Source: Halovenus sp.
GTDB lineage: Archaea; Halobacteriota; Halobacteria; Halobacteriales; Haloarculaceae
Assembly: GCA_028275025.1 (NCBI GenBank)
Contig: JAQCNM010000086.1
Coordinates: 1 to 34,668 of the forward strand
Reading direction: 5' to 3'
DNA length: 34,668 nt
Each line of letters begins with the position of its first letter. The stretch's first letter is position 1. Below, piece by piece: positions 51 through 22,467 of the stretch. A model generated the notes under the pieces. The model was not told the origin of the DNA, searched no databases, and worked only from the letters and a program-made list of their open reading frames with translations. The translations under genes were made by a program, and so were the position numbers.

Positions 51-2888
51 ATGAGTGACAGCGGACTCGCCGAGGGAGCGGCGGCGTTCACCGCGCTCGG
101 CACAGAGCTACGGGGGGCGCTCTCGAAACGGGGGTTCGAGACACCGACAGAGCCACAGCGCCGCGCGCTCCCGGCGCTTGCAGACGGTGAGAACGTCGTC
201 GTGGTCGCACCGACCGGGAGCGGCAAGACCGAGACGGCGATGCTCCCGGTGTTCGACTCGCTCGTGGGAGCCGACCGTCACGGTATCGGTGCGCTGTACA
301 TCACACCGCTGCGTGCGCTCAACCGGGATATGCGCGAGCGCCTGGAGTGGTGGGGTCAGACCCTGGACCTCGAGGTCGACGTCCGGCACGGCGACACGAC
401 CGACTACCAGCGCCAGAAGCAGGCAGAGGACCCACCGGACGTGCTCGTGACCACACCGGAGACCTTGCAGGCGATGTTCACCGGCAAGAAACTGCGGCGT
501 GCACTGGCGGATGTCGAGCACCTCGTCGTCGACGAGATTCACGAACTCGCGGTCTCCAAGCGAGGCGCACAGCTCGCGATCGGGATGGAGCGGTTGCGTG
601 CGCTCGCGGGACCGTTCCAGCGGGTCGGGCTGTCGGCGACGGTCGACGACCCCGGGGAGATCGGTGCACTCCTGACCGGTGACAGGCGGTGTTCGGTCGC
701 CGAGGTGTCGGTCGGGGCGGCCCTCGACATCGACGTGCGCTGTCCGGACGTCACCGACGAGGACGAGCGCCTCGGCCGGGAGCTGGTCACCGACAGCGAG
801 GTGGCGAGTCACGTCCGGGCTATCGACGAGGTGGTCGGGGCGAACGAGGCGACGCTCGTGTTCGTCAACACGCGCCAGACAGCAGAGGCACTCGGCTCCC
901 GGCTAAAGGAGTACGGCACCGACGTGGGTATCCACCACGGCTCACTGGCCAGGGACTCCCGGGTCGACGTGGAGTCACGGTTCAAACAGGGTGAACTCGA
1001 CGCCCTGTTGTGTACCTCCTCGATGGAACTGGGGATCGACGTCGGTCACGTCGACCACGTCGTCCAGTACAACAGTCCCCGGCAGGTCGCCCGTCTCCTC
1101 CAGCGGGTCGGGCGGGCGGGTCACCGCGAGGGTGACACCTCCTCGGGGACAATCGTCACGAGTCACCCCGACGACGTGCTCGAGTCACTCGTGGTCGCCC
1201 GACGGGCCCGCCGCGGGGCCGTCGAGCCGGCGACCATCCACCACGGGAGTCTCGACACCGTCGCAAACCAGATCGCCGGCCTGGTGATGGAGCGTGACGA
1301 GATTCAGGCCGCCCGGGCCTACGAACTCGTCACCCGGGCGTACCCGTTCCAGGACCTCGACGCCGAGACGTTCAAGCGAGTGGTCCAGGTGCTCGCCGAG
1401 AACCGCATCGTCTGGCTCGACGAGGAGGCAGACCGGCTGGAGAAGCGGGGCGGCACCTGGCAGTACTACTACCGCAATCTCTCGATGATCCCCGACGAGT
1501 CGACATACACCGTCGAGGACGTCGCGAGTGGGAGTCGGGTTGGGACCCTCGACGAACGGTTCGTGGTCAACTTCGCGGCCCCGGGTGAGGTGTTCGTCCA
1601 GCGCGGTGAGATGTGGCGTATCACCGAGATCGACGAGGAAGAGGAGACGGTGACAGTCTCGCCGATCGAGGACCCTGCCGGTGAGGTTCCCTCCTGGACC
1701 GGTCAGGAGATACCGGTCGCCCGCGAGGTGGCGGCCGGTGTGGGACAGTTACGCGAGGTCGCGGGTGCACAGCTCGAAACCGGCGCCACGCCGGACGCGG
1801 TTGCGCGTGACTGCTGTGGCCGGTACGGGGTCGACCCGGAGACGGTACTCTCGGGGCTCGAACAGCTCGACGAGCAGGTCGCGGGTGACCACCGCGTCCC
1901 GACCGACGAGACGATAACTGTCGAGTCCGGTGGCGGGTCGGTCGTCGTCAACGCCTGTCTGGGTCACAAGACAAACGAGACGCTCGGACGGCTACTCTCT
2001 GCGTTGCTCGGCCAGCGGGTCGGCGCGACCGTCGGCCTCGACGTCGACCCGTACCGCATCGAACTCGACGTGCCACGTGGCCTCCGGGCGAGTGATGCCG
2101 TTACCGTGCTGGAGGAGACCGACCCGGCACACGTCTGGGGGCTGGTCGAGCGCAGTCTGCGCAACGCAGACGCCCTGAAGTTCAAGCTCGCGCAGGTCGC
2201 GACCACGTTCGGCGCACTCAAGCCGTGGCGTGGCTCCAACCGGTTCGGCCGGAACCGCCTGCTCGACGCACTCGAGGGGACCCCAATCTACGACGAGGCG
2301 CTCCGGGAGCTCCGCCACGAGGAGCTAGCGGTCGAGAGTGCGGGCGACGTGCTCGCGGCGATTCAATCCGGGGAGCTGGCGGTCGAGGTGGTCCCGGAGC
2401 ACACGCCGATCGGAACCGGCGGGCGCAGCGCCGGTCAGGAGCTACTCACGCCCGAGAACGCCGACGCGAGTGTCATCAGCACCGTGAAAGACCGGCTCCA
2501 GAACGACCGCGTTATCCTGTTTTGCCTGCACTGTCAGGACTGGGAGCGAACGACGACAGTCAAACGGGTATCCGACCAGCCGGGGTGTCCGGAGTGTGAC
2601 TCGACTCGCGTCGCCGCGCTCAACCCCTGGGACGAGGAGACGGTCGCGGCCGTCCGGTCTCCAGAAAAGGACGAGGAACAGGAGCGTCGCACACGACGGG
2701 CCTACCGGGCGGCGAGTCTGGTCCAGAGCCACGGCAAACAGGCCGTCATCGCACTCGCCGCCCGCGGGGTCGGCCCACAGAACGCCGCCCGCATCATCAA
2801 CAAGCTCCGCGAGGACGAGACCGAGTTCTACCGCGACATCCTCACCCGCGAGCGGGAGTACGCCCGCACCCGCTCGTTCTGGGACTGA
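51..2888 (+). CDS. Lhr-like ATP-dependent helicase (DEAD/DEAH superfamily 2)
   Basis: 945-aa ORF; Walker A APTGSGKTE, DEIHEL (DExH), motif III SAT, RVGRAGHR motif VI, long C-terminal domain with a Cys-rich HCQDW...CPEC segment. Confidence 0.93.
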   Translation: MSDSGLAEGAAAFTALGTELRGALSKRGFETPTEPQRRALPALADGENVVVVAPTGSGKTETAMLPVFDSLVGADRHGIGALYITPLRALNRDMRERLEWWGQTLDLEVDVRHGDTTDYQRQKQAEDPPDVLVTTPETLQAMFTGKKLRRALADVEHLVVDEIHELAVSKRGAQLAIGMERLRALAGPFQRVGLSATVDDPGEIGALLTGDRRCSVAEVSVGAALDIDVRCPDVTDEDERLGRELVTDSEVASHVRAIDEVVGANEATLVFVNTRQTAEALGSRLKEYGTDVGIHHGSLARDSRVDVESRFKQGELDALLCTSSMELGIDVGHVDHVVQYNSPRQVARLLQRVGRAGHREGDTSSGTIVTSHPDDVLESLVVARRARRGAVEPATIHHGSLDTVANQIAGLVMERDEIQAARAYELVTRAYPFQDLDAETFKRVVQVLAENRIVWLDEEADRLEKRGGTWQYYYRNLSMIPDESTYTVEDVASGSRVGTLDERFVVNFAAPGEVFVQRGEMWRITEIDEEEETVTVSPIEDPAGEVPSWTGQEIPVAREVAAGVGQLREVAGAQLETGATPDAVARDCCGRYGVDPETVLSGLEQLDEQVAGDHRVPTDETITVESGGGSVVVNACLGHKTNETLGRLLSALLGQRVGATVGLDVDPYRIELDVPRGLRASDAVTVLEETDPAHVWGLVERSLRNADALKFKLAQVATTFGALKPWRGSNRFGRNRLLDALEGTPIYDEALRELRHEELAVESAGDVLAAIQSGELAVEVVPEHTPIGTGGRSAGQELLTPENADASVISTVKDRLQNDRVILFCLHCQDWERTTTVKRVSDQPGCPECDSTRVAALNPWDEETVAAVRSPEKDEEQERRTRRAYRAASLVQSHGKQAVIALAARGVGPQNAARIINKLREDETEFYRDILTREREYARTRSFWD

Positions 2889-2930
2889 CCACCACAACCC
2901 TCATGTCCGGACCCCGCGTGACCTGTTGGC

Positions 2931-3602
2931 ATGCCGTCCACTATCGTTCACCTGGCGCTCGCGGGACTGCTCGCCGCGGCACTGCTCGGTCGCGCCCTCG
3001 ACAAGCGGTCACTGGGGGTCGTTCTGGGGGCCGTACTCGTTATCGACCTCGACTCGTTTATCGACCTCGTCGCCCCGTACGGACACCGGGTGGTGTTTCA
3101 CAATCTCGTGCTCCCGGCTGCCGCTGGTGGGCTCGTGCTCGCCGACGTCTACCTCCGCGAGCACTCATACATCCTCGACCGCTGGGGCTCGTGGGGGTAC
3201 CGGGTCGCCTGGGTGACGGTTCTGTGCTACGTTGTCGCCGGTGTGTTGCTCGACCTGACCGACGGTGTCCTCAATCTCTTCTGGCCGCTCCACGACCAGT
3301 TCTACGCACTCGAGGGCTCCATCGAACTCTCGGACCAGCGTGGTCTCGTCCAGACGTTCGTCGACCTGAGCGGTGGCGGTGGAGCGCCGACGCCGGAGGC
3401 TGTCGGCACGACCGAGGATGTCGATATTACGACGGGTGTCGACCCCGGTCAACCCGACACACCCGAGGAGGACCCCGAGCGGGTGTTCCCCGTTATCGGC
3501 TCCACGTGGGAGCTTCTCCTCTTTCTCACCGGGACTGCCGTGACAGTCACACGCCTCTCACTCCCCACACTGCCGGATGACAGTGCAGACAGCCGCGAGT
3601 GA
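2931..3602 (+). CDS. Membrane-bound metal-dependent hydrolase-like protein (YdjM/DUF457-like)
   Basis: MPSTIVHLALAGLLAAALLG start with conserved His/Asp (DLDSFIDL, HRVVFHN) and TM segments. Confidence 0.7.
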   Translation: MPSTIVHLALAGLLAAALLGRALDKRSLGVVLGAVLVIDLDSFIDLVAPYGHRVVFHNLVLPAAAGGLVLADVYLREHSYILDRWGSWGYRVAWVTVLCYVVAGVLLDLTDGVLNLFWPLHDQFYALEGSIELSDQRGLVQTFVDLSGGGGAPTPEAVGTTEDVDITTGVDPGQPDTPEEDPERVFPVIGSTWELLLFLTGTAVTVTRLSLPTLPDDSADSRE

Positions 3603-3691
3603 CTGTGCCGACTCCTTTCGGGAGCAGGGCCGGCTACACCGTCGACATCCTCCCCGCCCCGAACGGCGAGGAGTCCCACGGCACCGCACCG

Positions 3692-4306
3692 CTAGAGTAA
3701 CTCCGCAAGAAAAAACGGTTTCTCGCTGTCCTCGGTGGTCGGGTCGTGGACGTTCCAGACCCCTCGGAGGTCGAACCCACAGCCCCGCAGTGTCTGACGT
3801 GTCGCCTCGGAACCCGCCATCGACCAGCGCATCTCCGTGCCGCTGCCCAGCCAGTCCGGGTTCGAACCGCACCAGGCCTCCTCGCCTTCGGTGACCAGCA
3901 GCGTGCCCCCGGGCCGGAGCACCCGCGCGAACTCCGCGAGCACGGTCCGGTGGTCGGACAACGGAACGTGGATCAGCGAGTACAGCGCGGCCACGGCGTC
4001 GAAGCTATCGGCTCCGAACGGGAGGCTGGTCATGTCACCCCTGACGAGTGCCCCCGCGACACGGCCTCGGGCCAGCCCGAGCTGTTCCCGGGAGAAGTCC
4101 AGCCCGACACCGGCCGCTCCCGCGGCGACCAGCGGGGCGTCACCCGCCCCACAGCCGGCCGACAGCAGGCGACCGTCCCCGAGTTCATCGCAGAACCGTT
4201 CAACCGGCTCCGGCACCCGCCCGTCGTGGGCGTCGTCGGCATACTGTTCGACGTACGTCTCGGCCATCTCGTCGTACGCACGCTGCACGGCACGGCGGTC
4301 GTCCAT
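3692..4306 (-). CDS. Class I SAM-dependent methyltransferase
   Basis: ORF 3692-4618 trimmed to ATG at 4306 (MDDRRAVQRAYDEMAETYVEQYADD); motif I LLSAGCGAGDAPLV, post-motif FDAVAALYSLIHVP, LRPGGTLLV. Confidence 0.85.
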   Translation of the reverse strand: MDDRRAVQRAYDEMAETYVEQYADDAHDGRVPEPVERFCDELGDGRLLSAGCGAGDAPLVAAGAAGVGLDFSREQLGLARGRVAGALVRGDMTSLPFGADSFDAVAALYSLIHVPLSDHRTVLAEFARVLRPGGTLLVTEGEEAWCGSNPDWLGSGTEMRWSMAGSEATRQTLRGCGFDLRGVWNVHDPTTEDSEKPFFLAELL

Positions 4307-13054: not shown

Positions 13055-13771
13055 ATGCGTGATGGAATCTTCTCGGGCGACCGAGCACACCCCGCACAGC
13101 GGTTCGAGAACGACCCACACGAGCCGGAACTCGGAACTATCCCGGACGGCACGTCCGATGCGGATTCGGTGAAAAAGACCGGAACGACCACCATCGGTAT
13201 CTCCACCGAGGACGCTGCGGTCATCGCCACCGACATGCGTGCGAGTCTCGGCGGCCGCTTCGTCTCGAACAAGAACGTTCAGAAGGTCGAGCAGATCCAC
13301 CCGACGGCCGCGCTGACACTGGTCGGTAGTGTCGGCGGCGCACAGTCGTTTATCCGGAGCCTCCGTGCCGAGGCGAACCTCTACGAGACCCGCCGTGGCG
13401 GGCAGATGAGCATGACCGCGCTCTCGACGCTCGCTGGCAACTTCGCCCGCGGCGGTCCGTTTCTCGCGATCAACCCCATCCTGGGTGGCATCGACGACGA
13501 GGGTGCACACGTGTACAGTATCGACCCCGCCGGCGGCGTGATGGAGGACAACTACACCGTGACAGGCTCCGGTCTAACAGTCGCGTACGGTACTCTCGAG
13601 GACCGCTACGAGCAGGATATGTCGCTCGAGGCCGCACAGCAGGCCGCCGTCGCGAGCGTCGAGGCCGCCGCCGAGCGCGACACCGGTTCCGGTAACGGCG
13701 TCTACCTCGCGACAGTCACCGAGGAGGGTGTCGACATAGACGACTACGACCTCGACGAGTTCGACACCTGA
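13055..13771 (+). CDS. psmB: Archaeal 20S proteasome subunit beta
   Basis: Propeptide followed by [40 protein letters not shown], catalytic Thr context, [11 protein letters not shown]. Confidence 0.95.
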
Positions 13772-13778
13772 GTGGGCG

Positions 13779-14276
13779 ATGACCGACAGGTCACCTGTCG
13801 AGCGTGTCGGTGACCGGTTGCGCGAGACCGGTGTGATGGTCGCGGTGGCCGAATCGAGCACCGGCGGACTGGTGTGTTCTTGGCTAACAGACGTTCCCGG
13901 GTCGAGTGACTACTTCGACCGGGGGGTAGTCTCGTACTCGAACGCGGCAAAGGTCGAGGTGCTCGGCGTGAACTCGGCCACACTAAATGAACACGGTGCC
14001 GTCTCCGAGCAGACTGCCCGCGAGATGGCAGTCGGCGTCCGTGACCTGGCCGGGACCGCCTGGGGGGTCTCGACGACCGGTGTCGCCGGCCCCGGCGGTG
14101 GAACGGCCCGTACACCTGTCGGGACAGTCTACATCGGTGTCGCACGCCGGAACGGCGACGGGTCGGCCGTGTCGGCCGAGCGCTACGAGTTCGACGGCAC
14201 GCGAGACGCCTGCAAGCGACAGTTCACCAGACAGGCCCTCACCGACCTGCTCGACGCGGTCGAATCCGACCGCTGA
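13779..14276 (+). CDS. CinA-family nicotinamide-nucleotide amidohydrolase domain protein
   Basis: VAVAESSTGGLVCSWLTDVPGSSDYFDRGVVSYSNAAKVEVLGV; TGVAGPGGGT..PVGTVYIGVA. Confidence 0.93.
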   Translation: MTDRSPVERVGDRLRETGVMVAVAESSTGGLVCSWLTDVPGSSDYFDRGVVSYSNAAKVEVLGVNSATLNEHGAVSEQTAREMAVGVRDLAGTAWGVSTTGVAGPGGGTARTPVGTVYIGVARRNGDGSAVSAERYEFDGTRDACKRQFTRQALTDLLDAVESDR

Positions 14277-14347
14277 CAGCCGTCTCGACACACTGTCGGG
14301 ACAGCACGTGATCGAATCCCGAACCGACAGCAGTTCCTCCGCCCGGT

Positions 14348-14665
14348 TCACTCCTCGTGCCCGCTCGACGCCGGACGGCCCAGTTCCCGCTCGACGGCCT
14401 CAACCTTCGCCGCCGCCGCTTGGTCGACAGTCCGCTTGTCGTCTATCTTCAGGAACGTCCCGACACGGTCACCCTCGACGGCCTCGTGGGCGGCCTGTGC
14501 CGCGGCGAACACCTCGGCGGCCGTCTCGGCCTCGATAATCGTCCCCATCGGTGTGGTCTCGTACTCGACGTCGAACGCCTCGAGACGCTCGACCGCCGTC
14601 GCAACTGCCGGTGCCATACTCCCTTCCGTGTCGGGTGAGACACTCAGAAACGCGGTTGTCGTCAT
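14348..14665 (-). CDS. MTH1187-family thiamine-binding protein (DUF77)
   Basis: ATG at 14665; MTTTAFLSVSPDTEGSMAPAVATAVERLEAFDVEYETTPMGTIIEAE. Confidence 0.87.
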   Translation of the reverse strand: MTTTAFLSVSPDTEGSMAPAVATAVERLEAFDVEYETTPMGTIIEAETAAEVFAAAQAAHEAVEGDRVGTFLKIDDKRTVDQAAAAKVEAVERELGRPASSGHEE

Positions 14666-14848
14666 AGCTTCCCGTTCGGTCGGAGCGATAATGCACGTTC
14701 CGACATCGGAGGCTAGTTTGGCCCGTCGGCTACCGGCACGTCGTGGTTCTCCCGACCCCGACAACCAGACCGTGACCACTCCCGGGTCGACACTCGAACC
14801 CACGAGACGACCGGTTGCTGTTCCGTACCGTGTCACCGTGTTTCGATG

Positions 14849-14886: not shown

Positions 14887-16794
14887 ATGACTGGCCAACA
14901 ACCGGACGAGGTGGACAACACCCGTCGAAAACTTCTACTTGCCCTCGGTGGCTCCGCGTCGGTGGGGCTCGCAGGCTGTACGGGTGGCGACAGTGACAAC
15001 GAAGGAAACGGTGGCGAGAACGGTGGCACGAACGGCGGCGAGAACGGTGGCACGAACGGCGGCGAGAACGGTGGCACGAGTCCGTCCAGTCTTGAGGTCA
15101 GCCCACCACAGGCCGACAAAGCACAGGCTGCCTGGGAGAGGGTTATAAACAACCCGTCTCCCGACGCACAGGGCCTTCGTAACGAGGCTTACGTCGAGAT
15201 GGAGGAGGCCGTGCGTGACGATATGGTCCTGCTCCCGCTGTACCACGGACTGACCGAGCGGTTCTGGTACAACGATGTCGAGACTCCGAACACGGGAACG
15301 CTCGGCTCCCATCATCAAATCCACAACGACACGTCGGTAGAGGGCTCCGACACGCTCAGCCTCACCAACGCGACGTTCAACACTATCGACCCGATTCAGT
15401 CCGACGACACCGCCTCCGCGCGGGTCATCAACCAGATGTACGAGACGCTGACTCACTACCCCGCTGGTGTGCCGGAGCTTCAGAACCGGCTCATCGAAGG
15501 AGTCAGTGTGTCCGACGACCAGCTCACGTGGACGATTACCCTCCGCGACGATGTGACGTTCCACGACGGGTCATCGATGACCGCTGCCGACGTGAAATAC
15601 AGTCTTGAGCGGGTGGCGCTGTCGGATAACAGTGTCCGTGCGAGTTTCGCGCTGGACACCACTGGTGGTCTCGCTATCGAACACGAGACCGACGAGGAGA
15701 ACGGTGTCGGTCCGATGAGCGCTGTGCCGGACTCGCTCGGAATCGAGGCCGTCGACGAGCAGACCCTGGAGCTTCAGGTGTCGGCACCCAATCCTCCACT
15801 GCTCGATGTCATGACATACTCCGCCTTCGCACCGGTTCCAGAAGGGTACGTGGGTGATGTGCCTGGCTACGACGGTGAGGTAACTGTCGACGAGATCAGC
15901 CGTCAGGAAGCAAACGGTACCGGGCCGTTCCTGTTCGATAGCTTCACCGAGAACGAGGAGGCACGGGTTGTCCGTAACGACGAGTACTGGGGTGAGACTG
16001 CCAACGTCTCGGAAGTCCAGTGGGCTATCTTCTCGGACCCACAGGCCGAGTACGACTACTCGGTTCGCGAAGAGAACGCCGATATCTTCGAGATCCCGAC
16101 CCAGTTTTACAGTCAAGAGCAGATCTCCGCCGAGGAGGACGACCGCGGGCGTGACGTTGGAACGTATCAGCTCCAAGACGGTCCAGAGACCGAGGTCAAC
16201 TACCTCGGTGTGCCAGAGCTGAGTACGTTCTACTTCGCGTTCAATGTCTCACAGACGCCGAAGCCGGTTCGGATGGCGGTCGCACTGGTTGCGAATCACG
16301 AGCAACTCGTCCAGCAGATCTTCCAGGGGCGTGGTGTCGAGGCGTTTAGCTTCACTCCGCCGGGCATCTGGCCGACCGGTCAGGACGGCTACGACAGCTG
16401 GCTCGAAGCCTGGCCATACGGGCGTAACGAGTCGAACTTCGACGCGGCCGAGCGTATCCTGTCGAACAACGATTACACCTCCGACGACCCGTACGATCTG
16501 ACAGTGACGACCTACTCGAGTCAGGTGTTCCAACAGGCTGCCGGAAACCTCCGTGACAAACTGTCCGGCCTTGGCGTCTCGCTGGAACTCGAGCAGGCAC
16601 CGTTCTCGACACTCCAAGAGCGTGGTGAGAACGGTGACCTGCAGATGTACTCGCTTGGCTGGATCTGGAGCTGGGAGTCCGTCGCGTACGGGATGTTCTC
16701 GTTCGAGCCCAAAAACACCAACACGGACGAGATTCCGGGTGAGGCAAACGGTTACTACCTCGATTGGCAGACTGCACTCGAAGACGAGGCCTGA
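14887..16794 (+). CDS. ABC transporter substrate-binding protein, family 5 (peptide/nickel type), Tat lipoprotein; apparently circularly permuted
   Basis: Twin-arginine RRKLLLALGGSASVGLAGC lipobox; SBP_bac_5 features (TWTITLRDDVTFHDGSSMTAADVKYSLERV, NGTGPFLFDSF, NYLGVPELSTFYFAFNVSQTPKPVRMAVA); C-terminal-type SBP segment present near the N-terminus. Confidence 0.93.
   Translation: MTGQQPDEVDNTRRKLLLALGGSASVGLAGCTGGDSDNEGNGGENGGTNGGENGGTNGGENGGTSPSSLEVSPPQADKAQAAWERVINNPSPDAQGLRNEAYVEMEEAVRDDMVLLPLYHGLTERFWYNDVETPNTGTLGSHHQIHNDTSVEGSDTLSLTNATFNTIDPIQSDDTASARVINQMYETLTHYPAGVPELQNRLIEGVSVSDDQLTWTITLRDDVTFHDGSSMTAADVKYSLERVALSDNSVRASFALDTTGGLAIEHETDEENGVGPMSAVPDSLGIEAVDEQTLELQVSAPNPPLLDVMTYSAFAPVPEGYVGDVPGYDGEVTVDEISRQEANGTGPFLFDSFTENEEARVVRNDEYWGETANVSEVQWAIFSDPQAEYDYSVREENADIFEIPTQFYSQEQISAEEDDRGRDVGTYQLQDGPETEVNYLGVPELSTFYFAFNVSQTPKPVRMAVALVANHEQLVQQIFQGRGVEAFSFTPPGIWPTGQDGYDSWLEAWPYGRNESNFDAAERILSNNDYTSDDPYDLTVTTYSSQVFQQAAGNLRDKLSGLGVSLELEQAPFSTLQERGENGDLQMYSLGWIWSWESVAYGMFSFEPKNTNTDEIPGEANGYYLDWQTALEDEA
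15007..15078 (+). repeat. Three tandem 24-bp units (aacggYggcgagaacggtggcacg) encoding NGGENGGT
   Basis: Direct reading: units 15007-15030, 15031-15054, 15055-15078, one C/T difference in unit 1. Confidence 0.95.
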
Positions 16795-16917: not shown

Positions 16918-17970
16918 ATGGGACGCTGGCGTTACTTCCTGCAGCGTGTGCTGCTCTCGATACCAGTGCTGTTTTTGGTCATCACGTTCCTGTTCGTGGT
17001 GCTGAGGCTGGGACCGGTCGACCCAGTCGCGGCGCGTCTCGGTCCACAAGCGTCTGGTGCCGATGTCGCCGCCGTCGAAGAGCGACTGGGTCTGAACGAC
17101 CCGCTGTGGGAACAGTACATCAGATTCGCCTCGGACTTGCTCCAGTTCGAGGGGCAGTCGTGGGTCGTCCAGGCCGATCGAGGTATCCCCGCCGTGTTGG
17201 CCGACACTGCGCCGCCGACACTCTGGCTGGGTTTCTGGGCGATACTGCTCCCGCTTTTTATTGGCCTGCCGCTCGGGTTCTACGCCGGGCTCAACCCAAA
17301 CAGCAGTCGCGACTACATCAGCTCGGGACTGGGCATCCTCTGGTTGGCGATGCCGAACTTCTGGTTGGCCTCGATGCTCGCGGCCTTTCTGGCGTCGACA
17401 GCAAGCGGCGGCCCACTGGGTTTCGAGTGGCACACGTTCGGCCCCAACATACAGTCTGTCCAGGGCACCCCGAGTCTCAATTTCGTCACGCTGAGCTCCA
17501 TCGGACCCGTTCCGTTCCCGACCGGACTCGACCTCGGCGGGTTCGCCCGTGACACAAAGAAGATTCTCCCGCCGGCGATCGTTTTAGGCTCCGCATCGAT
17601 GGCAGCCGAACAGCGTATCGGCCGGACGGCTGTCTTGGAGAACATCAACTCGAAGTACGTCGAAACCGCAAAGGCAAAAGGTGTCAAGGGTCGCAAGATA
17701 ATCACAAAGCACGTGTTCCGTAACGCCCTGATACCGCTGATTCCCGTTATAACGAACGAGGCATTTCTCCTCATCGGAGGGTCGGTTATCGTGGAAGAGC
17801 TGTTCACGATAAACGGTCTGGGCCGAACCTTCTTTCAGTCAATCATCCAAGGTGACCTGCCACTCGCCGGGTCGTTGCTGTTCGTGTTCACACTACTGTT
17901 GATCGTTCTGAACATCTTCCAGGACCTGTTGTACACGATAATCGACCCACGGGTGGGGTACGACCAATGA
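16918..17970 (+). CDS. ABC transporter permease (DppB-like)
   Basis: MGRWRYFLQRVLLSIPVLFLVITFLFVVLRLGPVDP; EAA-loop-like YVETAKAKGVKGRKIITKHVFRNALIPLIPV. Confidence 0.95.
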   Translation: MGRWRYFLQRVLLSIPVLFLVITFLFVVLRLGPVDPVAARLGPQASGADVAAVEERLGLNDPLWEQYIRFASDLLQFEGQSWVVQADRGIPAVLADTAPPTLWLGFWAILLPLFIGLPLGFYAGLNPNSSRDYISSGLGILWLAMPNFWLASMLAAFLASTASGGPLGFEWHTFGPNIQSVQGTPSLNFVTLSSIGPVPFPTGLDLGGFARDTKKILPPAIVLGSASMAAEQRIGRTAVLENINSKYVETAKAKGVKGRKIITKHVFRNALIPLIPVITNEAFLLIGGSVIVEELFTINGLGRTFFQSIIQGDLPLAGSLLFVFTLLLIVLNIFQDLLYTIIDPRVGYDQ

Positions 17971-19757
17971 GTGAAACGGTCACCCCGGAATCGGACGTTG
18001 CCCCACTCCGCAAGCGGTTTCTCGACAACCCCAGGCCGGCGCTCTTGTGGCTTGTCGGCGCACTCGCCTTACTGGTGCTTGAACTCGGTCGGATACTGGG
18101 GTGGGTAAAGGCGCTTGGAACCGGTGTGAAGTTCGCCGTCATGACCACCGCGGCACTCCCGAAGTGGGTCGGCGGTAACGTGGAGAGTGCCGTCGCAGAC
18201 ACCGGAGTCCTGCCGGGACGTCTCGAACCTGTCGGCGAGTTGCTCGGCTCTGGTGTCGTGACTGTGCTCGTCTTTGGGTTCGTGGTATCGGTGTTTCTCT
18301 CACTGTCGGAGCGGCGTGTCACGCGACTCCTCAGACCCAACATGCCGAGCTACCGTCGACTCACGGTCGAACGGGCTCTGCTGACGGGCATACTGACTGT
18401 TGTCAGTGCGCTCATGGTGTTGACGCCGATCGGTGGACTCGTCGAGAGTATGATCGGCTTTCTCACGGCGGTTCTTGACAACATTTCGAACCAGGCACCG
18501 ACGCTGACCTCTCGTGAAATTATTCCCAACCAGGGGTACCGGTCACCCGACGGTTCGGGTTGGGAGGGAACGTTCCTCGGTCTGTCACCGGGGCAGTCGT
18601 GGGGGGTCCGTGTGGCGGTGGTGTATGCATACGCGTTCGGGTGGTTGGTGTGGCTCTGGCGGGGGTACAACGTGTTCCGCGAACAGTACCGGGCGGCCGA
18701 CTGGACACCCCGTGACGACACACTCGACCGGTTCAGTGGGCACCTCTGGGGGTTGTTCGGGCTCGTCGTCGTGTTCAGCTTTGTGGTGCTAGCACTCTGG
18801 GCACCAGCGATCAGCACAGTTCCGCTCGAGGAGCGCTCGAACGAACCATACCGGTTCGAACATCAGTTTCTCGACGATGAGGACATCGAAGGGAACCCAC
18901 TTACAGACGGGTCTGGCGACCTCGAGACCGTTAGGCACGGTCAGGCCAACCTCTACTCGGTCTCGAAAGGAAAGGGTCAGAACGTGGGGTTGTTCAGCTA
19001 CGACGACTTCGACCGGTTCTCACCGCTCGGGACAACACCGAGCGGGGGTGATATGATGACACAACTGGCCCACGGTGCCAGAACGTCGCTCATCATCGCA
19101 CTCACCGGACTGGGTCTGGCGACGCTGATTGCGCTCGTGATGGCCCTTCTGACAGCTTACTACAAGGGTCTGGTCGACCTGCTCACTGTTGTCACCAGTG
19201 ACACGATCGTCTCGATACCACTTTTCTTGCTGGTCATGATGCTGTCTGTGATATTCAGTGGTTCGGACCACCCTCTCGTGACACCACTCGACGGCGGGCT
19301 ACTGCTCGCGATGGTGTTTGCCTTCGCGTTCTGGCCGGGACTGTGGCGCGCAATACGTGGACCGACGTTGCAGATCGCCGAGGAAGATTGGATAGACGCG
19401 GCAAAGAGCTACGGTCAGACACCTTCGAAGATTATGCGTAAACACATGGCCCCGTACGTGGTTTCGTACACGATGATATACGCCTCGCTGCTGGTCGGGA
19501 GCACGATTATCGTTACCGCCGCACTCTCGTTTCTGGGACTCGGCATCTCTGAGCCGACCCCCGAGTGGGGCCGGCTTATCAGCAGTGGCCAAGACTACAT
19601 CACCACGGACTCTTGGCACGTTTCGACCGTATCGGGTATCATGATCGTGTTCGTGGTGACAGGGTTCAACGCGTTGGGTGACGGTATCAGGGACGCAATC
19701 GACCCCGAGTCAGACATCGGCGATGGCGACGCAGCGGCCGCCGGAGGTGGTGGCTGA
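17967..19757 (+). CDS. ABC transporter permease (DppC-like) with long N-terminal membrane extension
   Basis: C-terminal permease core HGARTSLIIALTGLG... IAEEDWIDAAKSYGQTPSKIMRKHMAPYV ... ALSFLGLGISEPTPEWGRLI; start overlaps dppB stop (ATGA). Confidence 0.93.
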   Translation: MSETVTPESDVAPLRKRFLDNPRPALLWLVGALALLVLELGRILGWVKALGTGVKFAVMTTAALPKWVGGNVESAVADTGVLPGRLEPVGELLGSGVVTVLVFGFVVSVFLSLSERRVTRLLRPNMPSYRRLTVERALLTGILTVVSALMVLTPIGGLVESMIGFLTAVLDNISNQAPTLTSREIIPNQGYRSPDGSGWEGTFLGLSPGQSWGVRVAVVYAYAFGWLVWLWRGYNVFREQYRAADWTPRDDTLDRFSGHLWGLFGLVVVFSFVVLALWAPAISTVPLEERSNEPYRFEHQFLDDEDIEGNPLTDGSGDLETVRHGQANLYSVSKGKGQNVGLFSYDDFDRFSPLGTTPSGGDMMTQLAHGARTSLIIALTGLGLATLIALVMALLTAYYKGLVDLLTVVTSDTIVSIPLFLLVMMLSVIFSGSDHPLVTPLDGGLLLAMVFAFAFWPGLWRAIRGPTLQIAEEDWIDAAKSYGQTPSKIMRKHMAPYVVSYTMIYASLLVGSTIIVTAALSFLGLGISEPTPEWGRLISSGQDYITTDSWHVSTVSGIMIVFVVTGFNALGDGIRDAIDPESDIGDGDAAAAGGGG

Positions 19758-21106
19758 TGACCGCCGACCGAGTCCGTGACCGACCTGACCGCGAGGACCC
19801 AATTCTTCAGGTGCGAAACCTGCGGACGGTGTTCTACACCGACAGGGAGACAATCCGTGCCGCAGACGGTGTGTCGGCAGACATCTACCCCGGTGAAACC
19901 CTCGGGGTCGTCGGGGAGAGCGGGTCGGGAAAGAGCGTTACCGCCCGCTCGATCATGCGGCTCATCGACTCCCCCGGACAGATTCTTGCGGGGAGCAGTA
20001 TCCGTTACCGGCAGACAGAGACCGTCCGAGCGTACGCGGATTCGTTCTCGGGGCACACGGCCGAACTCTCCGATGTGGCTCACGAGGTCGACAAGAGTGC
20101 GGCATTCGACCAGATCGACCGTACGCCACAGCACTTTGGTCACGAGCGGCCAGAAGATGTTCCTGTTGCGGATCTCGTCGGTGGCGGCTACGGACCGGAA
20201 CTGGGGCTCTGTGACGAGGGAGACTTCGTGTTCGTGACCGACGGTGAGGCGACACGACCAGGGCAGATACAGCGTGGATTCGTCGAGATAACTGCTCTCG
20301 AAGGAGAAGCGAAGCGACTGATGCGCGGTGGTCGTATCGCGATGATCTTCCAGGACCCGCTCAGCAGCCTCAATCCGGTGTTCACGATCGGCAATCAGAT
20401 AAAGGAGTCGCTCAATCTCCACCGCGATATGCGGGGTAGTGAAGCCACTCGTGAGGCGGCGGACCTACTAGAAGCAGTCGGAATCCCCGACTCCCGGCGG
20501 CGGCTGAAGGAGTACCCTCACCAGTTCTCCGGTGGGATGCGTCAGCGTGCTGTTATTGCAATGGCACTGGCATGTGACCCGGACGTGCTCATCTGCGACG
20601 AACCAACAACGGCGCTGGATGTCACGATAGAGGCACAGATTCTCGACCTGTTCACACAGCTCCAGGCAGAGCGTGACCTGGCAATACTGTTTATCACCCA
20701 CGACATGGGTGTGATTGCGAACGTTGCGGACCGAGTGAACGTAATGTACGCCGGTGAGATGGTCGAGAGAGCCGACGTAGACCAACTGTTCGAACACCCT
20801 CGACACCCGTACACACAGGGACTCCTCGAATCTATCCCGGGGGCACAGTCGGGTGACAGTCTCTCAACAATCGAGGGGACCGTGCCGACGCCAAACGAGC
20901 CACCGACCTCGTGCCGGTTTGCCGACCGGTGTCCAAAGGCGTTCGAAGCCTGCCGAGAGGTCCATCCGGTCTCGGTGCCGGCAAACGAACAGAACGACGA
21001 CCACACGGCCGCGTGTCTGCTGTACCCGGAGAATATGTCCGAGCAGGAAGCCGCTATGATGCACGACCAGCGAAACCCACCTCGCGAGGAGAGCGATACG
21101 TCATGA
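19757..21106 (+). CDS. Dipeptide/oligopeptide ABC transporter ATP-binding protein (DppD-like)
   Basis: Walker A GESGSGKSVTAR, FQDPLSSLNPVFTIGNQI Q-loop, QFSGGMRQRAVIAMAL signature, VLICDEPTTALDVT Walker B, HDMG, C-terminal CRFADRCPKAFEAC oligo_HPY motif. Confidence 0.95.
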   Translation: MTADRVRDRPDREDPILQVRNLRTVFYTDRETIRAADGVSADIYPGETLGVVGESGSGKSVTARSIMRLIDSPGQILAGSSIRYRQTETVRAYADSFSGHTAELSDVAHEVDKSAAFDQIDRTPQHFGHERPEDVPVADLVGGGYGPELGLCDEGDFVFVTDGEATRPGQIQRGFVEITALEGEAKRLMRGGRIAMIFQDPLSSLNPVFTIGNQIKESLNLHRDMRGSEATREAADLLEAVGIPDSRRRLKEYPHQFSGGMRQRAVIAMALACDPDVLICDEPTTALDVTIEAQILDLFTQLQAERDLAILFITHDMGVIANVADRVNVMYAGEMVERADVDQLFEHPRHPYTQGLLESIPGAQSGDSLSTIEGTVPTPNEPPTSCRFADRCPKAFEACREVHPVSVPANEQNDDHTAACLLYPENMSEQEAAMMHDQRNPPREESDTS

Positions 21107-22467
21107 GCCAACAAATCGGTACCGAGAGAGGTAGTACAGACGCTTTGGTCCAAGTCAGAAACCTGAAGACGTACTACGACGAGGGCGGACTGTTTGGCGG
21201 TCAGCCGGTACGGGCCGTCGACGGTGTCACGTTCAATATTCAGGAGGGTGAGACCCTGGGGCTGGTCGGAGAGTCCGGCTGTGGCAAATCGACGCTCGGG
21301 CGAACACTGCTTCAGTTGGAAGATGCGACCGGCGGTGAAATTCTGTACGACGGCGAGGATATCACCAGCTACGAACAAGACGAGCTCCTTTCCTGGCGAC
21401 GAAACGCACAGATGGTGTTCCAGGACCCCGAGTCGAGCCTGAACGAGCGGATGACCGTCGGCGAGATCGTCCGCGAACCGCTCGACGTTCACGAGTGGAA
21501 GACCGACGGCGAGCGACGACAGCGGGTCCAGTCGCTTCTCGAAACCGTTGGACTCCAGCGCGAGCACTACTACCGGTATCCACACCAGTTCTCCGGTGGA
21601 CAGCGCCAGCGAATCAGCATCGCTCGGACGCTCACCCTGAACCCGGATTTCATGGTGCTCGACGAGCCAGTATCGGCGCTCGACGTGAGCGTTCAGGCCG
21701 AGATAATCAACCTTCTCGAGGAGCTCCAAGCGGAGTTCGGCCTGACATATCTGTTTATCGCTCACGACCTCTCTGTGGTCCGGCACATCTCCGACCGGGT
21801 CGCAGTGATGTATCTCGGGCACATCATGGAGATTGGGCCGACAGAAGAGCTGTTCGCCGACCCTTCGAACCCGTACACACACGCACTGCTGTCTGCAATC
21901 CCTCTCCCCGACCCGGGACAGGAGCGGGACCGAATCACGCTCCAGGGAACGCCGCCGAACCCGCGATACCCGCCGAACGGCTGTCCATTTAGCACCCGCT
22001 GCCCGGCCCGGATACGACCCTCGGGGTATCAAGATCTTGACGAGGGGGTCTGGTCACAGCTGAACACGGTCCGAGAGGTGCTTCGAGAGCGCCAGCGCGC
22101 CGACCGGACGATACGCGAACGCATCCGAGGAAGCTTGGGCTGGGAGACCCGCTTTGGCGACATGAACGACACGATAACAGAGCTGTTCGGCGAGTTCGAG
22201 GTGCCCGCAAACGTGCAGGAGATCCTCGACGAGGTCGCCCGAAGAGCAAACGAGAACGACGAGGAAGCGGCACTCACGCTGCTCAACGACGAGTTTGGTA
22301 GCGTCTGTGACGGTGTCGACGAAGACCCGGAGCAGTCCGATTCGGAGCTACAGTTCTACACGGTTGGCTCGACCGACCGGAAGAGCTACTGTCACCGACA
22401 CGACTCGGAGTATCGCGAACCAGGCCCGGTAATTGAGGATCGGTCGATAAAAGAACACGGCGAGTGA
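21103..22467 (+). CDS. Dipeptide/oligopeptide ABC transporter ATP-binding protein (DppF-like) with C-terminal extension
   Basis: GESGCGKSTLGRT, QFSGGQRQRISIARTL, MVLDEPVSALDVSVQ; ATG at 21103 overlaps the dppD stop (ATGA). Confidence 0.95.
   Translation: MSQQIGTERGSTDALVQVRNLKTYYDEGGLFGGQPVRAVDGVTFNIQEGETLGLVGESGCGKSTLGRTLLQLEDATGGEILYDGEDITSYEQDELLSWRRNAQMVFQDPESSLNERMTVGEIVREPLDVHEWKTDGERRQRVQSLLETVGLQREHYYRYPHQFSGGQRQRISIARTLTLNPDFMVLDEPVSALDVSVQAEIINLLEELQAEFGLTYLFIAHDLSVVRHISDRVAVMYLGHIMEIGPTEELFADPSNPYTHALLSAIPLPDPGQERDRITLQGTPPNPRYPPNGCPFSTRCPARIRPSGYQDLDEGVWSQLNTVREVLRERQRADRTIRERIRGSLGWETRFGDMNDTITELFGEFEVPANVQEILDEVARRANENDEEAALTLLNDEFGSVCDGVDEDPEQSDSELQFYTVGSTDRKSYCHRHDSEYREPGPVIEDRSIKEHGE

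Follow-up and report, generated by a model that had tools for sequence, protein, structure and literature searches.

The gene at 14887–16794 of a Halovenus sp. contig (34,668 nucleotides, the whole of which is here called the window) encodes a family-5 solute-binding protein (SBP) that seems to begin with what is, in its relatives, the end of the chain. This raises the question of whether the order is real and, if so, how often and by which route the chain was re-cut in haloarchaea.

Chain order of the window protein

A first-pass annotation had described an open reading frame starting with a Tat lipobox and a Gly/Asn/Glu linker, then about 75 residues that normally close the protein; the frame, the lipobox, the linker and the sequences quoted are all found as it described them (Table 1). 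The twin arginine and the LAGC lipobox (RRKLLLALGGSASVGLAGC) have a spacing inside the 12–21 residues given, with the LAGC lipobox rules, for haloarchaeal Tat lipoproteins (PMC2945643). Pfam SBP_bac_5 matches residues 198–607 (6e-61, 206.9 bits for a cutoff of 32.4). By blastp, residues 75–150 align with residues 567–638 of the canonical protein L019, i.e. its extreme C-terminus (56% identity, E=4e-23), and the body of the window protein aligns with residues 86–561 of the same L019 (52% identity; residues 151–635 reach 49–52% in such relatives, and the body 49–55% across L019, L021, L022 and L084–L092).

Table 1. Features of the permuted gene and its operon in the window
Feature	Position	Strand	Basis or remark
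Circularly permuted family-5 (cluster C) solute-binding protein, 635 aa, type CP1	14887..16794	+	ORF, Pfam, blastp, HMM
Tat signal peptide (RRKLLLALGGSASVGLAG), residues 1-30	14887..14976	+	sequence; Tat and LAGC lipobox rules for haloarchaea (PMC2945643)
Lipobox Cys31 and Gly/Asn/Glu-rich linker, residues 31-74	14977..15108	+	sequence; disordered in model
Moved segment, residues 75-150 = canonical C-terminus (HMM 474-553)	15109..15336	+	blastp, HMM, dN/dS
Old C-terminus/old N-terminus fusion, about one residue between HMM blocks	15313..15360	+	HMM; pLDDT ~90 across
Body, residues 151-635 = canonical N-terminus to ~470; new C-terminus ...YYLDWQTALEDEA	15337..16791	+	blastp, HMM, Pfam
DppB-like permease	16918..17970	+	Pfam BPD_transp_1 5e-35; conserved downstream gene
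DppC-like permease	17967..19757	+	Pfam BPD_transp_1 3e-20
DppD-like ATPase	19757..21106	+	Pfam ABC_tran + oligo_HPY
DppF-like ATPase	21103..22467	+	Pfam ABC_tran + oligo_HPY

On an HMM of 556 positions, built from 18 canonical haloarchaeal homologues, the window protein gives two complementary blocks, 474–553 then 5–470, swapped in order and together complete. The canonical chain order is therefore not that of the window protein, which is, judged by these blocks, a topological variant and a non-standard member of the SBP_bac_5 family; the reading as a circular permutation was correct. A colinear alignment with ordinary SBP N-termini was sought by blastp and with the HMM, and is absent. The moved segment exists in exactly one copy across the window, nothing being lost, and no second copy lies in the window downstream of the stop, where the DppB gene comes next; this rules out a frameshifted copy beyond 16794 and bears out the claim that the segment was moved, not duplicated.

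The window sits in a fragmented MAG (190 contigs, 78.6% complete), a setting in which a misassembly, a frameshift or a pseudogene could be suspected. But the separately assembled halophilic archaeon J07HX64 (L039/L010), the only close named relative in the contig scan, shows the same order with 84% identity, and so do dozens of genomes; since many of these have single-contig chromosomes, a misassembly is excluded. A simple Nei-Gojobori count between the window gene and that of J07HX64 gives a dN/dS of 0.126 for the whole and of 0.045 for the moved segment: the gene is under strong purifying selection, which rules out a pseudogene, and no extra piece lies nearby. Neither is the HMM at fault, since control homologues from other subfamilies give one canonical block in 20 cases out of 20, so that the block test makes no false permutations. 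We thus regard an artefact or a decaying gene as scarcely credible.

Three cut sites and their spread

Three permuted types are found in the HMM set, all other proteins being canonical. CP1, the type of the window protein, comprises 40 proteins (HMM 470–554 then 4–470), CP2 comprises 22 (348–551 then 5–348) and CP3 only 3 (115–554 then 3–118, a cut at about 117); a duplicated block appears in none of them. Among 394 sampled haloarchaeal genomes, all of the taxonomic order to which the window belongs, CP1 is carried by about 42, as counted from the alignment span of window-protein matches (rows that begin before residue 100 and reach beyond 600). By full-length matches CP2 is present in 27 and CP3 in 3 of the 394, and any permuted type in about 72 at least. 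The CP3 match of G144 crosses one TAG; both blocks nonetheless lie within its ORF in L082. In plasmid records, only canonical-span matches were found, annotated as ordinary ABC substrate-binding proteins. This clade-wide sharing and the further cut points lie beyond what the first-pass annotation had in view. CP1 proteins pass as ordinary SBPs in annotation because the Pfam model spans the middle domain only; in the CP2 and CP3 proteins scanned, SBP_bac_5 is split into two stretches. One CP1 match (L078, G167:C2:639940-641751) crosses a TAA near its end, and its C-terminus falls a few residues short of those of its relatives.

As in natural permutants, the old termini are joined without a large insert: 0–8 residues separate the HMM blocks in nearly all permuted proteins (18 in L029), and mostly 0–5 in CP1. 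Besides, two of the three cut sites coincide with, or lie close to, loops of variable length (HMM 121 and 458). The short CP1 junctions and the position of the cuts both agree with a neutral drift, in which the export of folded proteins by Tat uncouples folding from threading, so that permutants arise and persist without advantage; the proposal includes that the ancestral ends can be joined by few residues and that repetitive linkers favour tandem duplication. The wide use of Tat together with lipid anchoring, special to haloarchaea (PMC2945643), points the same way. On the other hand, the related SBP copies of other subfamilies are all canonical, so that tolerance alone may not explain the clustering of permutations in one family. 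We consider the chances of such a drift to be evenly balanced.

Predicted fold

The AlphaFold model of the window protein, computed with 33 CP1 sequences, is a confident single fold (pLDDT 81, pTM 0.79). The moved segment and the junction have a pLDDT of about 80–96; residues 1–72 are below 50, and disorder concerns chiefly the signal and linker and the last residues. The best Foldseek matches are OppA, DppE and DppA (1ola, E 3e-26; DppE, TM(target) 0.71), so that a two-lobed OppA/DppA-like fold is predicted. The Foldseek alignment is sequential and leaves the moved segment unscored; the predicted closure of the fold is thus based on the confidence of the model and not on superposition. For CP2 the model is of low confidence (pLDDT 49.6, 19 sequences). 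Comparing the un-permuted window sequence or the canonical profile with PDB chains gave no informative full-length colinear match, because the C-terminal segment has diverged too far for a sequence alignment.

Operon context

The window gene heads an SBP-DppB-DppC-DppD-DppF operon. Upstream, at 13055–14836, lie genes judged by eye: one resembles a proteasome beta subunit, another a CinA-type protein and a third, encoded on the minus strand, a small thiamine-binding-like protein. DppB, C, D and F are found downstream of all permuted genes with enough flank, in the three types, except for one fusion gene (L043, described below). Most canonical relatives likewise adjoin DppB, C, D and F: L019, L021, L022 and L084–L092 have the same kind of operon where flank exists, with the ordinary chain order; for the canonical L129 and L136, no Dpp genes are present within the stretch read. 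The family and this context suggest an ordinary peptide-type importer with a moved lipid tether.

Number of independent events

An SBP tree was built from 95 re-ordered sequences and a second one from the DppB, C, D and F sequences only, clade constraints being submitted to AU tests. In the SBP tree CP2 forms one clade, with the CP3 protein L053 inside; the CP3 protein L081 is sister to the canonical L094, and the CP1 protein L029 to the canonical L035. Grouping all CP1 in one clade is rejected (p=0.00026), as is grouping all CP3 (p=5e-27); placing L081 and L082 together is unrejected (p=0.073). Since single clades are rejected for CP1 and CP3, and CP2 is distinct, at least five independent events are required: two for CP1, one for CP2 and two for CP3. 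The main placements recur in the permease tree, with the exception of the long-branched CP2 row L140, which stands apart from the other CP2.

Two canonical proteins, L083 (G106) and L086 (G327), are nested within CP1 in both trees. They might be reversions by a second permutation, the chain order flipping both ways, and the permease data, which reject a single CP1 clade holding the main CP1 (p=0.00026), argue in this direction. The SBP data however are compatible with such a clade (p=0.171), so that, if one considers only the SBP sequence, a single origin of the main CP1 clade is conceivable; several gains of CP1, or the exchange of SBP genes between operons, would moreover produce the same appearance. 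As the permease genes reject what the SBP sequence allows, reversion or gene exchange may explain some of the changes, but for L083 and L086 we judge reversion rather improbable.

A trace of the route

One CP3 protein (L053/L122, G035) carries a 15-residue Gly/Asp insert at HMM 349, which is the CP2 cut (stretch YQEHWQGYDGGDTGGSGFDGLSGYPYSPN, in the context ...YQEHWQG-YDGGDTGGSGFDGLSG-YPYSPN...). It connects a C-terminus of the CP2 type (SHWQG) with an N-terminal linker of that same type (FDGLDAYPYSPN). Inserts of at least 5 residues at this position are found in no canonical and no other CP3 row; the few others belong to CP2 rows, where they represent the protein's own chain end. The insert is what one would expect had two CP2 genes fused in tandem and in frame and then been re-cut elsewhere, and it supports such an event; the linker would then be the fossil of one permutation superposed on an earlier one, stepwise from CP2 to CP3. 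This lends support to permutation by duplication, as modelled in PMC3320104. Among the loci read, none encodes a protein with the segment at both ends, as a duplication intermediate would. Of the long ORFs considered as intermediates, L043 proves to be a fusion; the other four (L083, L096, L097 and L143) have the canonical order, lengthened by a long open frame or an extension. In L143 (G063:C3, 465–3104) the open frame continues for about 290 residues past the domain.

The mechanism first suggested, tandem duplication followed by new ends, is thus upheld in part: the duplication receives indirect support from the L053 linker, while the simple use of a new start codon does not fit, the signal, lipobox and linker still leading the protein. 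As permuted proteins begin with a Tat signal, a lipobox and an acidic/Gly linker, this cassette must have been kept, or re-joined before the new cut.

We propose, with a probability of about 0.88, that the window protein is a natural circular permutant of a cluster C SBP leading a DppBCDF importer, most likely capturing its ligand as an ordinary flytrap with the tether moved, in a family permuted at least five times at three sites. A few residues would connect the ancestral chain ends, and a loop elsewhere would have been opened to receive the Tat signal, the lipobox and the disordered acidic linker; fusion in tandem and in frame, followed by trimming, is probably how this recurred in haloarchaea. 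The permuted protein most likely takes on the ordinary two-lobed flytrap shape while still in the cytoplasm, exits folded by Tat and becomes lipid-anchored, and most likely passes peptide-like ligands to DppBC as usual, its tether being at a different point of the fold.

Comparison with known permutants and possible causes

Most of the natural circular permutations known come as single pairs. The present family combines at least five events, three cut sites, canonical sisters in like operons and a molecular fossil of the route; it lets one ask how permutants originate, whether Tat export loosens the constraint on the order of the chain and whether transport depends on where the tether sits. 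In the open-access papers searched, no naturally permuted binding protein is reported for cluster C or for haloarchaea. The window protein shares its Pfam family, predicted fold and DppBCDF operon with standard SBP_bac_5/cluster C members (OppA, DppA, DppE, MppA), and differs from them by having their C-terminal ~76 residues at the N-terminus, so that the tether enters elsewhere on the fold.

The closest parallel is Tp0684 (MglB-2), of the ‘Type Ic/cluster Bc’, a clade-wide natural permutant of a lipid-anchored SBP that retains binding and for which a role of the tether was also hypothesized (PMC4990184). It has however a cluster B fold and a single permutation type, whereas the haloarchaeal family has undergone at least five events at three sites; its moved part is 13% identical to its counterpart (PMC4990184), against 38–64% across haloarchaeal relatives. 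The window protein does not itself belong to cluster Bc: its sole Pfam match is SBP_bac_5 and the fold matches listed are of OppA/DppA type. The DNA methyltransferases, as cited in PMC3320104, are likewise one family with permuted members to which the permutation-by-duplication model applies; they are unrelated enzymes with documented intermediates there, where the haloarchaeal SBPs offer a linker fossil only.

The repeated re-cutting might also result from a selection on where the lipid anchor lies with respect to cleft and permease, for reasons such as S-layer spacing or docking geometry. In E. coli the scoop of DppB enters between the lobes of DppA (PMC12136057), and by analogy the position of the tether could matter. 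The recurrence of at least five events within a lipid-anchored family, the presence of the lipobox-linker before the new cut in each permuted type and the same idea put forward for the permuted, tethered cluster B proteins (PMC4990184) are in favour of this selection; but canonical and permuted forms share operon type and permease families, and canonical forms persist beside permuted ones, even nested in CP1. An advantage drawn from the tether shift therefore seems to us possible but somewhat doubtful. A broader scenario, in which the chain was re-cut repeatedly at three sites or more, stepwise and perhaps reversibly, the anchor shift being selected and Tat export making it cheap, is one we would hold as speculative.

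Finally, the fusion L043 (G040:C1:2519500-2532500, 894–3791; 965 aa) associates a kinase-like N-terminal domain, an RR/hydrophobic stretch and then a CP1 binding protein. No Dpp genes lie beside it, and its kinase-like domain is weak (Pkinase, 24.6 bits, under the cutoff of 31.7). A permuted binding protein has possibly been reused here to sense the outside for a membrane receptor.
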